This document shows positions 39,498 to 48,722 of a stretch of 64,000 nucleotides of DNA, one piece after another. The position numbers and the translations under genes are program-made. Below the pieces are notes generated by a model. The model had not been told where the DNA came from. It saw nothing but the letters and a program-made list of their open reading frames with translations, and made no database searches. Position 1 is the first letter of the stretch. Every line of letters starts with the position of its first letter. The DNA lies in NCBI GenBank assembly GCA_937922785.1, contig CALAJQ010000016.1, positions 1 through 64,000 on the forward strand, written 5' to 3'. Origin of the DNA: an uncultured Acidimicrobiales bacterium (GTDB lineage: Bacteria; Actinomycetota; Acidimicrobiia; Acidimicrobiales; SZUA-35).

Positions 39498-40166
39498 CTA
39501 GAAGACGGGGAACACGTTTGGGTCTTTTGCTGACCGTTCGGCCCGAGCGAGGGCGTAGAGAACGTTCCAGTCGCCGTGGCGGTTTCTTGCAATTCCGGTC
39601 AGGATGTCGATTACGATTGCCGGCCCGAGAGGATCGGTCTCGGGCCGTTGTTCACCAGTACTGACTGCGAGGTCATCTAGGTGAAGCAGGACCTCGATCA
39701 GCCTTGTCCGGCAGAAATCGTCAAGTGTGAGAAGCCGACCGCCTAGGGCACCGACGAGGCGATCGTGGGGCTCAGACGCCAACCGGGCCCTCAGATCTAT
39801 AGCCAGCTGCTGACATTTGTTTACTGTGGCTTGGTGGCCGATGGCTGCTTCGGTGGCTGAGACGTCTTTGATCTGTTCGTGGATGGGCGAGTCGATGGCA
39901 GCGTGGAAATAGGTGATTGGCGTTAGGAGGTTATCTTCGGGTCTGCGGTCGACAGGTGTGCGATCCAGGTAAGCGATCGTTGCGCCAGCGGCCCGGACCA
40001 GGTGCGCAGCAAGCGCTCCAACTGTCATTCCATCGAGAGCTGACGGCTGATCCCATTGTTCCTTCACAGCGGAGCGAGCTAAGAACACCGCGGCAGACTC
40101 CACTGCCTCTACAGCTAGACCGCGGACCTGGGCAGAGCTGATGGTGGACAAGTCGGTGTGGCTCAC
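39498..40166 (-). CDS. MDMPI_N-type (DinB-like) maleylpyruvate isomerase-domain protein
   Basis: A 222-residue helical protein beginning at a GTG that overlaps the previous stop (GTGA). The pattern (DGMTVGALAAHLVRAAGATIAYLDR, FCRTRLIEVLLHLDDLAVSTG) is that of the mycothiol-dependent maleylpyruvate isomerase N-terminal domain, including the spaced His residues that bind a metal in DinB/MDMPI folds. Function is likely thiol-dependent detoxification or transfer. It forms a two-gene unit with the DinB-like gene at 40163. Confidence 0.75.
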   Translation of the reverse strand: MSHTDLSTISSAQVRGLAVEAVESAAVFLARSAVKEQWDQPSALDGMTVGALAAHLVRAAGATIAYLDRTPVDRRPEDNLLTPITYFHAAIDSPIHEQIKDVSATEAAIGHQATVNKCQQLAIDLRARLASEPHDRLVGALGGRLLTLDDFCRTRLIEVLLHLDDLAVSTGEQRPETDPLGPAIVIDILTGIARNRHGDWNVLYALARAERSAKDPNVFPVF

Positions 40167-40891
40167 TTCTGTATCTCGATTCTTTTCATCGATGGTCCGT
40201 TTGCGTTTGTGTCGCCCCAATATTCCGGAAGCCGGAGGTAGCCAACCCTGGGAAGCTCAACAGTTGGTTCCAAACCTTGGTGTTCTTTAAGACGCTGAAT
40301 GGTTCTGATGTGGCTGAGCATTTCGTAGAAAACCATCCAAAGCGAACCCTCCAAGTCATAACGAACGAAGCCGGGGTGATCGGGGTCTGGGTCTGCACCA
40401 CGAGGCAGTGTGGTGATCACATAGGCCCAGAATTCGGTGGCTCGAATGCTGACCCTTTCCGCCCTCAGCTGCTCAATTGTGAACTCGTTAGCTACCCGTT
40501 CGAGCCAACCTATGCCTATCTCCAGTTTCGCAATGAGGTCAGGCACCTGCCAATAGAGGTCCTCGTCGAGCATCCGGTCATATTTCATCTTCGGTCCGAA
40601 ATGGTGGTGCTCCCAAACGACAGGTTCGGGCTCGTTGCCGTCGGGCCAAAGCAGCGCGCCGCAGCGGCGATGAGTAAAGACAAGCGAATCCCAAGCCATG
40701 TGCGAAACCTGGCGACGGATTGACCACCACATCCACTCGTTCGCAGGACCGAGATCGTCGAAGTCGAGCTGGGTGACGCTTAGCCCATCCACCTCAGACC
40801 GAACCCAGTCAACCAACCGCCGATAAGGAGGCATGGTCGCTTTATCTGGATCCTCGGGCATCTCGACGATTTTGTGATCGACCAATGCCAT
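40163..40891 (-). CDS. DinB-like protein
   Basis: A 242-residue helical protein with PPYRRLVDWVRSEVDGLSVTQLDF, WSIRRQVSHMAWDSLVFTHRRCG and FYEMLSHIRTIQRLKE. The spaced His residues (QVSHM, MLSHIRTI) suit the DinB/YfiT four-helix metal site. It follows the CYP153 gene by 10 bases on the same strand and overlaps the MDMPI-type gene downstream. The three may be co-transcribed. Actual activity is unknown; DinB-fold proteins include thiol-S-transferases and metal-dependent hydrolases. Confidence 0.65.
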   Translation of the reverse strand: MALVDHKIVEMPEDPDKATMPPYRRLVDWVRSEVDGLSVTQLDFDDLGPANEWMWWSIRRQVSHMAWDSLVFTHRRCGALLWPDGNEPEPVVWEHHHFGPKMKYDRMLDEDLYWQVPDLIAKLEIGIGWLERVANEFTIEQLRAERVSIRATEFWAYVITTLPRGADPDPDHPGFVRYDLEGSLWMVFYEMLSHIRTIQRLKEHQGLEPTVELPRVGYLRLPEYWGDTNANGPSMKRIEIQK

Positions 40892-40901
40892 GGTGTGAGC
40901 G

Positions 40902-42215
40902 CTACTTGCGGGTTACTTGGACTGGGAGAGTTGCGTAGCCGTTTACGAATGATGAGAAAGTGCGGGTCGGTTCTTCCTTCACCTCGACGCGTTCGAATTG
41001 GGCCAGAAGCTCCTCCCACAGAATCCGAAGTTGAAGCTCGGCCAGGCGGCTACCCATGCAGTAGTGCACGCCGTAGCCGAATGACAGATGACGGTCTGCG
41101 TTGGGTCGTTCGATATCGATCACGTTTGCGTTCTCGAACATGTCTTCGTCACGGTTCGCAGAGGCGTACCACATCAGGATCTGGTCGTTCTTGAGGATCT
41201 GCTTGCCGCCAATTTCGGTGTCGAAGTTGGCAGTGCGTCGCATATAAGAAAGTGGCGTCTGCCAACGGATGATCTCAGGCACCATGCCTGGGATTAACGA
41301 CGGGTCGGCGATTAGCTTGTCGTACTGGTCGCTGAACTTGTTCATGCCATAAATGCTGCCAGACATGGTGTTTCGAGTTGTGTCGTTTCCGCCAACGATC
41401 AGCAGCAGGAGATTGCCGAGGTGAGCTGCTGTGGGCATGTGCTTGGTGGCTTCGCCGTGAACCAACATTGTGACCAGATCATCACCGGGGTTATGGAGGC
41501 GGTCTTCCCAAAGCACCTCGAAGTACCGGACGCAGTCCATCATCTCTTCGCGCTTTTGTTCGATTGTCTCAACCACGCCTCCAGGCTGAGGAATAGCAAA
41601 GACGATGTCAGACCAGCGGGTTAGCTTGCGTCGGTCCTCAAACGGGAAGTCGAACAGGGTCGCCAGCATCATCGTGGTGAGCTCGATGGAGACGGTGTCT
41701 ACCCAGTCGAAGGTTTCGCCATCTGGGAGCGAGTTCAAAACGTCGACGGTTCGTTCCCGAATCAGCGGCTCGATATTGCGCAGGTTCTTTGGCGCAGCTA
41801 CGGAGCGAACGGTGTTGCGTTGTTCGGTTTGCTTTGGTGGATCCATCGAAATGAATGAGGTGATTTGCGGAGCGTCATCGCCGCGTTCGACAATCTTTTG
41901 CCCCAAAGTGATTCCTGGTGCGGACGAAAAGGTCTTCCAGTCTCCATCGACAGCTCGAACGTCGTCGTATTTGGTGATCGACCAGTAGCGGCCCGCCGTC
42001 TCTAGCTCGTTGAAATGAACGGGGTCTTCCGCACGCAGGCGTGCGAAGTGCTCTTGCCAGCGGTTCTCACGAAAAAGGTGAGCATTAAGAGGATTGATCT
42101 CGTCTATCGACAATTCCGAAGCGGCCGCCACGTTGGCGCCCAGCTCGGCCATTTCGGCTTCGGGACCGCGGCTAAAAGCCTCAGAGATCGAAGGATCGAC
42201 GTTGGTGTCAGTCAT
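40902..42215 (-). CDS. CYP153: cytochrome P450, CYP153-type alkane hydroxylase
   Basis: A 437-residue P450. The haem motif is HLSFGYGVHYCMGSRLAE with the axial Cys; the I-helix is LLLIVGGNDTTRNTMSG; the K-helix is EIIRWQTPLSYMRR. Long stretches (FDWVDTVSIELTTMMLATLF, DFPFEDRRKLTRWSD, MWYASANRDEDMF) match the CYP153 family as I remember it closely. CYP153 enzymes hydroxylate medium-chain n-alkanes and fatty acids at the terminal carbon. A strong AGGAGA ribosome-binding site precedes the ATG. The ferredoxin and ferredoxin reductase genes that usually flank CYP153 are absent, so it must borrow electrons from elsewhere. Confidence 0.85.
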   Translation of the reverse strand: MTDTNVDPSISEAFSRGPEAEMAELGANVAAASELSIDEINPLNAHLFRENRWQEHFARLRAEDPVHFNELETAGRYWSITKYDDVRAVDGDWKTFSSAPGITLGQKIVERGDDAPQITSFISMDPPKQTEQRNTVRSVAAPKNLRNIEPLIRERTVDVLNSLPDGETFDWVDTVSIELTTMMLATLFDFPFEDRRKLTRWSDIVFAIPQPGGVVETIEQKREEMMDCVRYFEVLWEDRLHNPGDDLVTMLVHGEATKHMPTAAHLGNLLLLIVGGNDTTRNTMSGSIYGMNKFSDQYDKLIADPSLIPGMVPEIIRWQTPLSYMRRTANFDTEIGGKQILKNDQILMWYASANRDEDMFENANVIDIERPNADRHLSFGYGVHYCMGSRLAELQLRILWEELLAQFERVEVKEEPTRTFSSFVNGYATLPVQVTRK

Positions 42216-44551: not shown

Positions 44552-45430
44552 CTAGGCGCCGTGGCCGGTGGCTTTGGACAAATAGGCGGCCGGGGAAGTG
44601 CCCAGATGGCGTCGGAAGTCTCGGGTTAGGTGAGCCTGGTCTGAGTAGCCTAGTTCTGCTGCAACTGATGCCCAGCCTCGCCACTGGTCGCCGTTGTCGA
44701 TGGCCATTCGGGCTGCTTCGGCGGCCTCGATTATCCGCCACCTTCGAACCACCGCAGAGGGGCTAACTCCTACGTGGGTTTCAAAAAGGCGTTGAAGGGT
44801 TCTTACGCTGGCTCCAGCTGCCTTGGCGAGGTGCTCGTCTCTGCAGACTGATCTGTCACGCTCGGCAATGGCGGCAACTCGGCTGACCTCTTTTGCCTCA
44901 GTGATCATTGCCGGCTCGCGCCGCTCCACCAGGCCTTCCAGCGCCCTCCGTAGGACGGCTATCCGTGACTCGTTGTCTTCCTCGGCACATACCTCAGCCG
45001 TCGCCGCCTCACCGTCGAAACCGGGTATCGCGTTAGTCAGGGTGAGCTGGAGGTCGGTCGCTGATCGAGCCGGACCATCCAGAAACACACCTAGTCCGCC
45101 GACGGTCAGTCTGGCCGCAACTGTCCAACCCTGTCCGGTGAGTCTTCTGCTGCTGAGCCCAGTCATCACCCCATAAATTCGACCCTGGGGAGAATCGAGC
45201 GCGCCGTCATCATCAATAGTCCCGACGCTGATGTTGCCGGCCGGATGATTCAGGACTTGTTGATTGTGAATGACCCCTGCAGGTAGGTCCCACGCTACGG
45301 ACCAGAACCACTCGACAAGACCCTCAAGCCCGCCGTCGGCAGGCGAACGTTTGAAGTCGACATGGCGCAGCATTTCGACCGGATCGATTATTCCGCGAGT
45401 GTCATCGGGGAGGGGGCCGGGCACCTCCAT
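44552..45430 (-). CDS. AraC-family transcriptional regulator
   Basis: A 292-residue regulator. The N-terminal half is a cupin-like ligand domain of the DUF6597 type (GLEGLVEWFWSVAWDLPAG, VLNHPAGNISVG, VMTGLSSRRLTGQGWTVAARL). The C-terminal half has two helix-turn-helix units: AGASVRTLQRLFETHVGVSPSAVVRRWRIIEAAE and ASVAAELGYSDQAHLTRDFRRHLGTSPAAYL. It lies 34 bases upstream of the AraC/GyrI fusion gene on the same strand and is divergent from the MDMPI-type gene at 45499. Confidence 0.88.
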   Translation of the reverse strand: MEVPGPLPDDTRGIIDPVEMLRHVDFKRSPADGGLEGLVEWFWSVAWDLPAGVIHNQQVLNHPAGNISVGTIDDDGALDSPQGRIYGVMTGLSSRRLTGQGWTVAARLTVGGLGVFLDGPARSATDLQLTLTNAIPGFDGEAATAEVCAEEDNESRIAVLRRALEGLVERREPAMITEAKEVSRVAAIAERDRSVCRDEHLAKAAGASVRTLQRLFETHVGVSPSAVVRRWRIIEAAEAARMAIDNGDQWRGWASVAAELGYSDQAHLTRDFRRHLGTSPAAYLSKATGHGA

Positions 45431-45486
45431 GACGATATCGGCCGAGCTTGGCGTGAATCTTCAAGAAGCAGTACGAGGTGATCACT

Positions 45487-45501
45487 TAGGTTGCCTACAT
45501 G
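45487..45501 (+). promoter_or_regulatory. leaderless -10 element (TAGGTT-N6-ATG)
   Basis: TAGGTT, GCCTAC, then the ATG of the TIGR03086-type gene. The hexamer is identical to that at 5781-5786 on the other strand. Confidence 0.55.
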
Positions 45502-46149
45502 ACTGATGACGCTAACGAATTGCCCCTGTTCCCAACAAATGCCCCTGCTATTTTCAGCGACCCTGGGGCGACTGCCAAACTTTTCGGCGAGGTGCTTGAG
45601 CGCCTGGCCGATGTTGTCGAACTGAGCGATGTCGACCTAGGGCAACCAACGACGTGCGACGGTTTCACGCTGGGCGATCTTCAACGTCACACCCTCGGCT
45701 GGTTGCAGTATTTTGCCGCTGCGCTCTCGGACCCCTACGCCGCATCAAGTCGTCCTGACCCCGACACTTTCGAGCTTGTTGGAACCCAGACAGCGAACAG
45801 CATTGTTGCTAACGCACAGGCTGTTATCTGCACTGCGATCGCCGACGGCGTGTCCGACGAGGTGGTCACGATGTCTTCCTCCCGTATGGCAGGCGACGGG
45901 GTTTTGGCGATGGCGCTGGGGGAGTACATCGTTCACGCCTGGGACTTGGCCACTGCCACTGGGCGACCGTATTCGGTTTCCGACGATGCGATTCAGCCAG
46001 CGCTTGATTTCTTGCGGGGGATGGTAGCCCCGGAATACCGGGGACCGGATTCGGGCTTCTTCGGCGATGAGGTCGAAGTATCCTCAGACGCACCGTTGCT
46101 ACACAAGCTCCTTGGTTTCACTGGGCGCAACCCTGAAATGTTGAGCTAG
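45499..46149 (+). CDS. TIGR03086-family (DinB/MDMPI-like) metal-binding protein
   Basis: A 216-residue helical protein: FGEVLERLADVVELSDVDLGQPTTCDGFTLGDLQRHTLGWLQYFAAAL, then MALGEYIVHAWDLATATGRPYSV and FFGDEVEVSSDAPLLHKLLGFTGRNP. The RHTLGW and VHAWDLA histidines and the LGFTGRNP ending are typical of the actinobacterial TIGR03086 group, a DinB-type fold. Role unknown, possibly mycothiol-linked. Convergent with the halohydrin-dehalogenase-like gene. Confidence 0.82.
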   Translation: MTDDANELPLFPTNAPAIFSDPGATAKLFGEVLERLADVVELSDVDLGQPTTCDGFTLGDLQRHTLGWLQYFAAALSDPYAASSRPDPDTFELVGTQTANSIVANAQAVICTAIADGVSDEVVTMSSSRMAGDGVLAMALGEYIVHAWDLATATGRPYSVSDDAIQPALDFLRGMVAPEYRGPDSGFFGDEVEVSSDAPLLHKLLGFTGRNPEMLS

Positions 46150-46155
46150 CGGCTG

Positions 46156-46827
46156 CTATGACCAACCACCATCCTGGCTGATTACTTGGCCGAAAATAAA
46201 TGACGATGACTCGCTAGCAAGGAAGAGGGCTAGCTCTGCGGTTTCGGACCCTTCGCCTAACCGTTGTGCGGGCACGTCCTGCCTCAACCGCTTTAAGAAC
46301 TTCTCGTTCTGGGCCAATTCAGGCGGATAGTAGGTCTCATTGGCCACGAAGTTCTGAGCAACTGCGTTTAGCCGGATGCCCTGTTTGGCCAAAGCATGGC
46401 CGGCGGAGCGAACAAACGCATTCTGTGCGGCGCGGGCGGTTACATAGGGGACCGCTTGGGGAGACATACGCCGTAGTGGCGATGACGACGTGATTGCCAC
46501 TACGGAACCGCCGCCGGCTTCAGCCATTTTCGGAGCAGAAGCTCTGACGAGGCGCATCAACGGGTGCACCATTGCGTCGAAGCTGTCTAGCCAAGGCCCG
46601 TCTTCGATATCTGCGGGCTTTGCTGCATACGCGGGCAAGTCGAGGTTGGCAACAATCGCGTCTAAGTCCCCGGCAGAGTCGATGAGCTGCTGAGGAGCAT
46701 CCGGTGAAACAAGTGAGTCGGTGTCAGCGATGACGTCGGCCCCTTCGTTGCTGAACAGGTGAGCTATTGGCGGGCCCATGTAGGTGTTGGCGCATGTCAG
46801 GAGGATGCGCTTGCCGGCTAACCGCAT
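46156..46827 (-). CDS. short-chain dehydrogenase-like, putative halohydrin dehalogenase
   Basis: A 223-residue Rossmann protein. The usual SDR Gly-rich cofactor loop is absent: LLTCANTYMGPPIAHLF stands where TGxxxGxG would be. The catalytic set is S115-x12-Y128-x3-R132 (ITSSSP ... PYVTARAAQNAF), with Arg in place of the SDR Lys. Loss of the NAD(P) loop together with Ser-Tyr-Arg is the signature of halohydrin dehalogenases. N- and C-terminal segments (RLAGKRILLTCA, EGADVIADTDSL, QNFVANETYYPPE, IFGQVISQDGGWS) recall HheB in particular. Expected reaction: vicinal haloalcohol to epoxide plus halide. A good AAGGACC ribosome-binding site precedes the ATG. Confidence 0.7.
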   Translation of the reverse strand: MRLAGKRILLTCANTYMGPPIAHLFSNEGADVIADTDSLVSPDAPQQLIDSAGDLDAIVANLDLPAYAAKPADIEDGPWLDSFDAMVHPLMRLVRASAPKMAEAGGGSVVAITSSSPLRRMSPQAVPYVTARAAQNAFVRSAGHALAKQGIRLNAVAQNFVANETYYPPELAQNEKFLKRLRQDVPAQRLGEGSETAELALFLASESSSFIFGQVISQDGGWS

Positions 46828-46928
46828 GAGTGGTCCTTAGGCTCGTGGTGGGTTCGGAGTTCCATCGGCAGACCCTACTAAAGACTCGCTGTCGGCGACC
46901 TTTCGTCAGGGTGCCTATCGTTGGAGAG

Positions 46929-48722
46929 TTAGCTCATCAGGGTGACGGTGGCGGCAATGGTCAGTTGCACCGAGATGCTTAGCGGCAAACCGGCCTTTAT
47001 GTAGTCGGAGAAGCGATAGCCGCCAGGGCCGTAGACCATCGTGTTTGTTTGATAGCCGACCGGGGACAGGAACGAGGTTGACGCTGCGATCGCCAATGCG
47101 ATTGCCATAAGCCTCGGGTCAACTCCGGCTGGACCGGCTACCGCCAAAGCGATTGGGAACACGACCACTGCTGCAGCGTTGTTGGTGACAATCTCGGTAA
47201 GCACCGACGTTGCCAGTACCAATCCGAGTACCAGTCCGAACGTTCCCAGGCCCTCGAATGCTCCAGTGAAACCTATGGCGATACTGTCGGCGAGACCGCT
47301 TGCTTCAACTGCAGCACCCAGCCCGAAAGCTGAGGCGATCAGTAGGATCACATCTAGGTCAATCGAGTTCTTTGCGTCCCCGAAAGTCATGACTCGCGAA
47401 GCCACCATTGCACCGGCTGCCACTAAAGCAGCTTCTAACGTTGACAGCAGGCCAGTGGCTGCAAGCGCAACAAATCCGACAATAATCGCAGCGACGATAG
47501 ACGCGTTCGCCGACGCGACAGGGGCGGGCGCGTCAAGCTCGGCGACAACGAGGAACTCTTTGCTTTGCCCGTAGCGGCGGCGAAATGCGTCACCAGCGAC
47601 CAGCACTAGGGTGTCGCCGTGGCGGAGTCGGACATCGCCGAGCTTTTCATCGAGACGTTGGCCAGACCGATGAATCGCCAGGACGGCAGCGCCATACCGG
47701 GCGCGAAAATCAGCCTCTCGTAGAGTCATCCCGTTCACGGCTGACATCCGGCCGATTACTACTTCAAATAGGCCCCGGTCAACTGCATCGATTGAGTCGA
47801 CCTGGTGCTCAACTACCGAAGTCAGTCCGGGCATTCTCTCGAGGTCCAAAACGTTGTCGACCTGGCCGACAAAGGTCAAGATGTCATTTTCAGCCAAGAT
47901 CTCATCGGGCCCAACCGGCACAATCGATCCACCATTGCGACGCAGCTGCGCAAGATACACGCCATCCAGGGAACGTAAGCCGGCAGCAGAAACTGACTGA
48001 CCGTTCATCGATTTGTCACTGCCGACTCTCATCTCAACGAGGAACGCCCGGGCCTCGTCGTCGTCTTGATCTGCCGCTGCTCGGCGGTTAGGAATCAGCG
48101 GGATTGAAACGGCGAATAGGACAAACATGCCAACTAGCGCAACTGGCAAACCGATCTTGGCGAACTCGAAGATGCCTAGGGCTTCGGCGCCTGTTTCTTC
48201 CAACAGCCCTGATACGACCAGGTTGGTTGAGGTGCCAAGCAAAGTCAGTGTTCCACCCAAGATCGAAGCGTATGAGAGTGGCAGCAGATAGCGCGAACCG
48301 TTGCGACTGTTGCGTCTACACCAAGCAAGAACGTCAGGTATGAGGATCGCCACAAGTGGCGTGTTGTTCAGCACTGCTGAGGACAAGGCCGAGGGAATCA
48401 ACAGACGGGCGTGTGCCACGCCTTTGCCCCCTGGCTTGCCCAGCAGCTTTGCCAGCGGGCCAGACAACAAGCCGGTTCGTTGGGCTCCCGCCGCCACCAC
48501 AAAGAGAGCAGCAACTGTTAGCGGAGCGGGGTTCGAGAAACCCGAAAACGCTTCTGCTGAAGTGATCACATTGGTTATCAGGAGAATGACAGTGGCGCCC
48601 AGAACCACTCCGGCCGGCGGGAACCGGTCGGCAACTAGTGTCCCAAGTGTCAAGATTAAGACGACAAGGGTGATGACAGCATCGGCCTCCACCTTGTCTA
48701 AATCGGCATTCTTTGCTGCCAA
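46929..48722 (-). CDS. SLC13/DASS-family anion transporter with two RCK_C domains
   Basis: A 597-residue membrane protein: N-terminal helices, NNTPLVAILIPDVLAW and TSTNLVVSG (the SNT-type motif), a cytosolic insert at about 215-375 with two TrkA-C/RCK_C modules (GLRSLDGVYLAQLRRNGGSIVPVGPDEIL; GMTLREADFRARYGAAVLAIHRSG), and a second membrane half with VTNNAAAVVVFP and SFLSPVGYQTNTMVYGPGGY. This layout is typical of actinobacterial SLC13 transporters for sulfate or dicarboxylates. The start is uncertain: TTG at 48722 or GTG at 48689. Confidence 0.88.
   Translation of the reverse strand: MAAKNADLDKVEADAVITLVVLILTLGTLVADRFPPAGVVLGATVILLITNVITSAEAFSGFSNPAPLTVAALFVVAAGAQRTGLLSGPLAKLLGKPGGKGVAHARLLIPSALSSAVLNNTPLVAILIPDVLAWCRRNSRNGSRYLLPLSYASILGGTLTLLGTSTNLVVSGLLEETGAEALGIFEFAKIGLPVALVGMFVLFAVSIPLIPNRRAAADQDDDEARAFLVEMRVGSDKSMNGQSVSAAGLRSLDGVYLAQLRRNGGSIVPVGPDEILAENDILTFVGQVDNVLDLERMPGLTSVVEHQVDSIDAVDRGLFEVVIGRMSAVNGMTLREADFRARYGAAVLAIHRSGQRLDEKLGDVRLRHGDTLVLVAGDAFRRRYGQSKEFLVVAELDAPAPVASANASIVAAIIVGFVALAATGLLSTLEAALVAAGAMVASRVMTFGDAKNSIDLDVILLIASAFGLGAAVEASGLADSIAIGFTGAFEGLGTFGLVLGLVLATSVLTEIVTNNAAAVVVFPIALAVAGPAGVDPRLMAIALAIAASTSFLSPVGYQTNTMVYGPGGYRFSDYIKAGLPLSISVQLTIAATVTLMS

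Follow-up and report, generated by a model that had tools for sequence, protein, structure and literature searches.

The gene and its flanking genes

The window, a stretch of 64,000 nucleotides from an uncultured Acidimicrobiales bacterium (contig CALAJQ010000016.1), carries on its minus strand, at positions 46156–46827, a gene that the initial annotation had put forward as a candidate halohydrin dehalogenase (HHDH). HHDHs turn small chlorinated or brominated alcohols into epoxides by removing the halogen. The reading frame, its coordinates and its strand were all found to be correct: it begins with an ATG, has a Shine-Dalgarno-like AAGGA (46834–46838, minus strand) 6 nt 5' of this codon, and encodes a 223-amino-acid protein followed by a stop, in which the first HHDH motif, Tyr128, Arg132 and the three consecutive serines 114, 115 and 116 are all present. 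The ORF call, PDB matches, tree and predicted fold were used for its assignment. It is not a chance ORF: members of its clade occur on 19 named contigs with 61–73% identity to the window protein, and Gly18, Ser114, Tyr128 and Arg132 are identical in 84 out of 84 aligned sequences.

Upstream and on the same strand, a gene coding for a CitMHS-type (citrate-type) anion transporter with two TrkA_C stretches (46929–48722) ends 101 bp from the HHDH gene. On the other side, a convergent gene on the plus strand encoding a TIGR03086 metal-binding protein (45499–46149) stops 6 bp from it and forms, with an AraC-type regulator gene on the minus strand, a pair that spans 44552–46149. Further away, at 39498–42215 of the minus strand, a P450 gene is followed by an ORF without a Pfam match, which we take to be DinB-like, and by an MDMPI_N (mycothiol-dependent) gene. 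These three genes overlap or nearly so, and the group, 4 kb from the HHDH gene, looks like one transcription unit. Neighbour genes are plain ORF calls, some with unsure starts.

Motifs and putative catalytic residues

HHDH motif 1 is given as T-X4-F/Y-X-G (PMC11976700, PMC4989007). Residues 11–18 of the window protein, TCANTYMG (46774–46797, minus strand), match this motif, with Thr11, Tyr16 and Gly18 at the defined positions of the putative nucleophile pocket. The segment stands where SDRs have their glycine-rich loop, and the absence of that loop, as initially annotated, was borne out. Motif 1 is kept in 82 of the 84 sequences, the exceptions being L065, which has an unread base, and L105, in which Thr is replaced by Ser. 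The signature of NAD(P)-dependent SDRs (T-G/A-X3-G/A-X-G and S-X10-14-Y-X3-K) is absent, TCANTYMG and YVTAR being found in its place.

The initial annotation had also proposed a Ser115-Tyr128-Arg132 triad. Tyr128 (46444–46446, minus strand), the putative catalytic base, and Arg132 (46432–46434, minus strand), at the position of the SDR lysine, hold in all 84 sequences, but the serine has to be moved by one residue. It is Ser114 (46486–46488, minus strand), the final residue of strand 107–114 in the model, that is invariant, whereas position 115 is occupied by Ala in 62 sequences and by Ser in 22. The catalytic triad is thus most likely Ser114-Tyr128-Arg132, with the serine assigned from the alignment and an X13 spacing between Ser and Tyr.

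Counted from the aligned serine, this S-X13-Y spacing, shared by all 20 members of the clade that includes the window protein (hereafter the window clade), departs from the published motif 2. The literal string S-X12-Y-X3-R is nonetheless matched by the 20 members through Ser115, for the sole reason that residue 115 is also a serine. Outside the clade the spacing is X12 in 62 of 64 sequences and X13 in the other two (L013 and L018). Since the triad is kept, the sequence can still be filed as that of an HHDH variant despite its X13 spacing. The one-residue insertion maps to Ser122-Pro123 (46459–46464, minus strand), its exact residue being alignment-dependent, in a catalytic loop that typically reads TSSSPLRRMSP in the clade (S-X13-Y-X3-R); it lies near the positions mutated in HheD8 (M124 and R127, from the title of entry 8xxb mapped onto the alignment). 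Three further residues mark the clade, Arg120, His144 and Ser217, each found in 20/20 members and in 0, 1 and 0 of the 64 other sequences, respectively.

L013 and L018 form a deep HHDH-like pair with S-X13-Y-X3-R and without a serine in the X12 register, and they fail the published motif 2. The genome that carries L018 (G040) also encodes L109, whose kinship is with G-type HHDHs (7wkq, 4.3e-98); L109 has Ala at the Thr position of motif 1 and an intact Ser-Tyr-Arg triad.

Relationship to characterised HHDHs

In the PDB sequence search the best matches were HheD2 (7b73, identified in PMC9629495; 5.5e-53), HheD8 (8xxb, a triple mutant taken as HheD8 by its entry title; 6.3e-44) and HheB of Corynebacterium sp. 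N-1074 (4zd6; 1.2e-43), while the best SDRs not named as dehalogenases came at about 2e-17. A profile built from 11 homologs placed the B and D types far in front (2.3e-70 or better), and with the same profile some cofactor-using SDRs (3.7e-34) ranked above HheA and the G types. Likewise, pairwise identity to eight SDRs (25.9–34.7%) overlaps that to the A, C and G types (28.8–37.3%). On sequence grounds, only the links to the B and D types are strong, the A, C and G types being no nearer than some SDRs.

The resemblance to HheB noted in the initial annotation stands at 38.0% identity, but HheB is not the nearest characterised type: the D type comes first, with HheD2 at 43.9%. HheD2 and HheD8 (36.8%) are similar in length to the window protein and share motif 1 and the triad with it; they differ by their S-X12-Y spacing, and the window clade falls outside the D group. 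HheB has the motif 1 tyrosine, and differs by S-X12-Y spacing and another loop. HheA2, HheC and the G-type enzymes (1zmo, 1pwx, 6i9v, 7wkq, 8h8y) share the Ser-Tyr-Arg triad, but have longer chains and lie on separate branches.

The tree was computed on 101 rows, comprising the 84 homologs (window protein included), nine HHDH references of the A, B, C, D and G types, and eight Lys-type SDRs. The HHDH references and the homologs are separated from the eight SDRs at 100/99. Within this part, the window clade (20 rows) is supported at 99/93 and lies outside the D group that contains HheD2 and HheD8 (18 rows, 100/99). HheB, a long branch of unsure placement, stands beside the D group at 95/64 rather than as sister of the window protein, which in this tree groups with neither the B nor the D type; L054 and L068 join the D group and HheB at 97/91. 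A separate clade of 44 rows (99/95) is drawn largely from Pseudomonadota; the remainder includes Chloroflexota, Myxococcota and Acidimicrobiales, among others. The link between the window clade and L013/L018, whose stem is long, is weak (90/58), and several long branches meet in the tree, so that the order among HHDH types is unsure.

Predicted fold

HHDHs are homotetramers, of which a single chain was modelled here. An AlphaFold2 monomer model built from the 84-sequence alignment has a mean pLDDT of 95.4, with the lowest values in the block 121–130 (84), where the insertion sits. In a Foldseek search with this model, chains of HheD2, HheD8 and HheB took ranks 1–9, NAD(H)-bound SDRs appeared from rank 11 and HheA only at rank 31. 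The VIA Z was 36.1 with HheB (0.9 Å over 222 residues), 35.4 with HheD8 (1.0 Å, 221) and 34.9 with HheD2 (1.1 Å, 222); over all structures of these three enzymes it ranged from 34.9 to 36.2, compared with 31.1 for the best other SDR. Further near structures in this comparison were 4yqz and 6a41, the latter titled a dehalogenation enzyme (VIA Z 31.8). Together with the PDB E-values and the 100/99 split of the tree, these values favour closer kinship to HHDHs than to ordinary SDRs, as the initial annotation had supposed.

Ordinary SDRs have the Rossmann fold in common with the window protein (VIA Z about 29–31) and differ from it by their glycine-rich loop and lysine, neither of which it has. 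Cofactor-binding SDRs possess a helix-strand unit after the second strand. In the model, the second strand is followed by one loop, one helix and a strand at 57–60, and this unit seems to be absent, as read from the predicted secondary structure. Three indirect signs would speak against an NAD(P) site: the missing glycine-rich loop, the missing lysine and the shortened segment after strand 2. As for the region of the halide pocket, the predicted fold superposes on the HheB and HheD8 structures as whole chains.

Distribution

The window clade has 20 members. The titles of the 19 named ones point to Acidimicrobiia or a group within it in 12 cases, only to Actinomycetota or Actinomycetes in six and to Deltaproteobacteria in one. 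Such enzymes had been described as scarce, which now appears doubtful: a scan of genome contigs gave 515 tblastn-confirmed stretches, at a loose cut that also admitted SDRs, of which the best 80 were kept, and 19 of these 80 loci belong to the window clade. The distribution of the gene is patchy. With a protein search at 1e-25, six genomes had a match both in the window's family (39 genomes) and in the class sample (395 genomes), its own genome being one of the six each time. We also considered that the gene could be mobile cargo and rejected this, since no relative was confirmed among 79 candidate stretches from viral contigs and a single plasmid record, from Novosphingobium (41% identity), was found at E 1e-20 or better. 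No description of this clade was met in a literature search, although one may exist.

Haloalkane dehalogenases and epoxide hydrolases

In 4 of the 80 fetched loci, representing three lineages, the HHDH gene has a haloalkane dehalogenase gene at most 1 kb away. In L037, a member of the window clade, the two genes are head-to-head and divergent, with starts about 0.1 kb apart; in L080, from Chloroflexi, they run in the same direction, 120 bp from each other; in L066 and L069, the haloalkane dehalogenases are 98.9% identical and located 937 bp from the HHDH gene. The proteins of L037, L080 and L066, the three that were scored, reached 374.9, 273.7 and 372.6 with the NCBIfam model NF002043, above its cut-off of 265. 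Taking as background the 58 NF002043 genes over the cut-off in 39 genomes (168 Mb) reached through HHDH loci, 0.06 adjacencies would be expected by chance for 81 places, and the probability for three lineages is about 3e-5, a rough and post hoc value that becomes 2e-4 at double density, the density itself being drawn from a chosen genome set. Within the window clade, such an adjacent gene is found in just 1 of 20 loci.

The genome of the window encodes two haloalkane dehalogenases over the NF002043 cut-off and one EHN epoxide hydrolase, none of them close to the HHDH gene. Neither enzyme was found near the window gene, and 141 kb of the contig separate it from the nearest NF002043 match. By gene content, a route from haloalkane through haloalcohol and epoxide to diol may be possible on paper in this organism.

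We rejected the idea that the presence of haloalkane dehalogenases tracks that of HHDHs: in the window's family, at least one occurs in 5/6 HHDH-containing genomes versus 18/33 others (Fisher p 0.37). Requiring at least two gave 4/6 versus 3/33 (p 0.006), a cut picked after seeing the data, and larger genomes may hold more haloalkane dehalogenases and HHDHs alike. A haloalkane dehalogenase over the cut-off occurs in 32 of the 39 genomes reached through HHDH loci versus 23 of the 39 of the window's family. Overall, the genomic context hints at a real organohalogen metabolism.

Other neighbouring genes

No conserved operon around the window gene was found when its neighbours were compared by blastp (1e-8) with those of the 80 loci, and these neighbours gave no clue to its substrate. 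The transporter recurs only in L100, a D-type HHDH locus that has a gene 29% identical to it just upstream on the same strand, and a second AraC-type gene only in L050. The AraC/MDMPI pair at 44552–46149 has a single counterpart in the 80 loci, a pair about 65% identical to it that opens L032, 3 kb from the HHDH gene of that locus. Family members of low identity to the window P450 and ABC-transporter ORFs occur in 7 and 12 of the 80 loci, respectively.

P450 genes are more frequent than expected beside the window clade: six of its 20 loci contain seven such genes in total, where 1.54 would be expected (P 0.001, uncorrected and post hoc). The expectation comes from 449 matches with some genes split in two and is if anything too high, and the motif-based count of seven omits a P450-like ORF in L032 (7102–8355), grouped with the others by blastp. 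In the window genome, only 1 of 23 other SDR matches has a P450 gene within 10 kb (Fisher p 0.04, a comparison across different genomes). We regard this association as a weak lead.

Another context recurs in the mainly gammaproteobacterial branch. There, 19 loci (between L062 and L107) have a DsbA-family gene on the HHDH strand, no more than 5 kb upstream, and clusters read from single representatives correspond to CoA-transferase-family (21 loci), MaoC-type (18), acyl-CoA dehydrogenase (20) and thiolase (6) genes; the best model for the CoA-transferase-family representative is 2-methylfumaryl-CoA isomerase, under its cut-off. The loci concerned are mutually related, and shared descent explains part of the recurrence. 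This acyl-CoA context suggests a part in another catabolism for some HHDHs, and it could give a clue to what the enzymes of that branch do naturally. A DsbA gene also follows directly downstream in L042, a member of the window clade.

Proposed function

Motif 1, the triad, the tree and the predicted fold support the candidate halohydrin dehalogenase of the initial annotation, and we consider it very probable that the gene at 46156–46827 encodes a cofactor-independent HHDH akin to the B and D types. Judged by sequence against five of the types A to G (A, B, C, D and G), it represents a new actinobacterial HHDH branch whose catalytic loop varies by one residue.

Both catalysis and the absence of a cofactor are inferred, and the mechanism outlined here follows that of HheC and of the family in general. 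Ser114 would hold a vicinal haloalcohol while Tyr128, made acidic by Arg132, would take the proton of its hydroxyl group; the alkoxide would then close to the epoxide and the halide depart into a pocket lined by T11, Y16 and G18 of motif 1 together with a loop at about residues 159–168. This dehalogenation would be reversible. In a pathway that breaks down natural or man-made organohalogens, the enzyme could follow a haloalkane dehalogenase (or a monooxygenase) and precede an epoxide hydrolase, a role that we propose tentatively. With similar caution, the window clade may be a separate Acidimicrobiia subfamily, recognisable by its longer loop and by Arg120, His144 and Ser217; its enzymes would act after haloalkane dehalogenases when organohalogens are broken down in nature, and L013 and L018 would be deeper relatives that escape motif mining.

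A less likely alternative is an enzyme of HHDH fold that opens or closes epoxides as part of lipid, sterol or terpenoid catabolism, using some other nucleophile, and dehalogenates only as a side activity. The recurrent DsbA and acyl-CoA-type genes, the DsbA gene of L042 and the P450 genes of the window clade would fit this, and a 2016 review states that further physiological functions cannot be excluded (PMC4989007). Against it stand the adjacent haloalkane dehalogenases in three lineages, the tendency of catabolic genes to cluster anyway, the post hoc nature of the P450 enrichment and the interrelated DsbA loci. It is highly improbable that the protein is a dead HHDH relative devoid of catalysis: no evidence for this was found, although the inserted loop residue might in principle affect the active site, and the triad is invariant across the 20 clade members, whose identity to the window protein is 61–73%. 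Least probable of all is an ordinary NAD(P)-dependent SDR whose motif was lost by drift, which we rejected on motif, tree and fold: Pfam assigned the protein to general SDR families only, and the 25 listed of 165 NCBIfam matches are general SDRs, all under their cut-offs, but the HHDH motif is kept clade-wide and both the tree and the fold side with HHDHs.

HHDHs are valued biocatalysts. The first to be known were obtained from strains that had been enriched on toxic compounds, and what the family does in nature is described as largely open (PMC4989007). For the HHDH reading preferred here, the extra residue between the catalytic Ser and Tyr may alter substrate scope, since it lies near the positions mutated in HheD8 (M124, R127), and relatives like L013 and L018 would escape any search that applies the published motif strictly. 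A coherent actinobacterial branch, with one member beside a haloalkane dehalogenase, offers a concrete case in which to ask what HHDHs do in nature.
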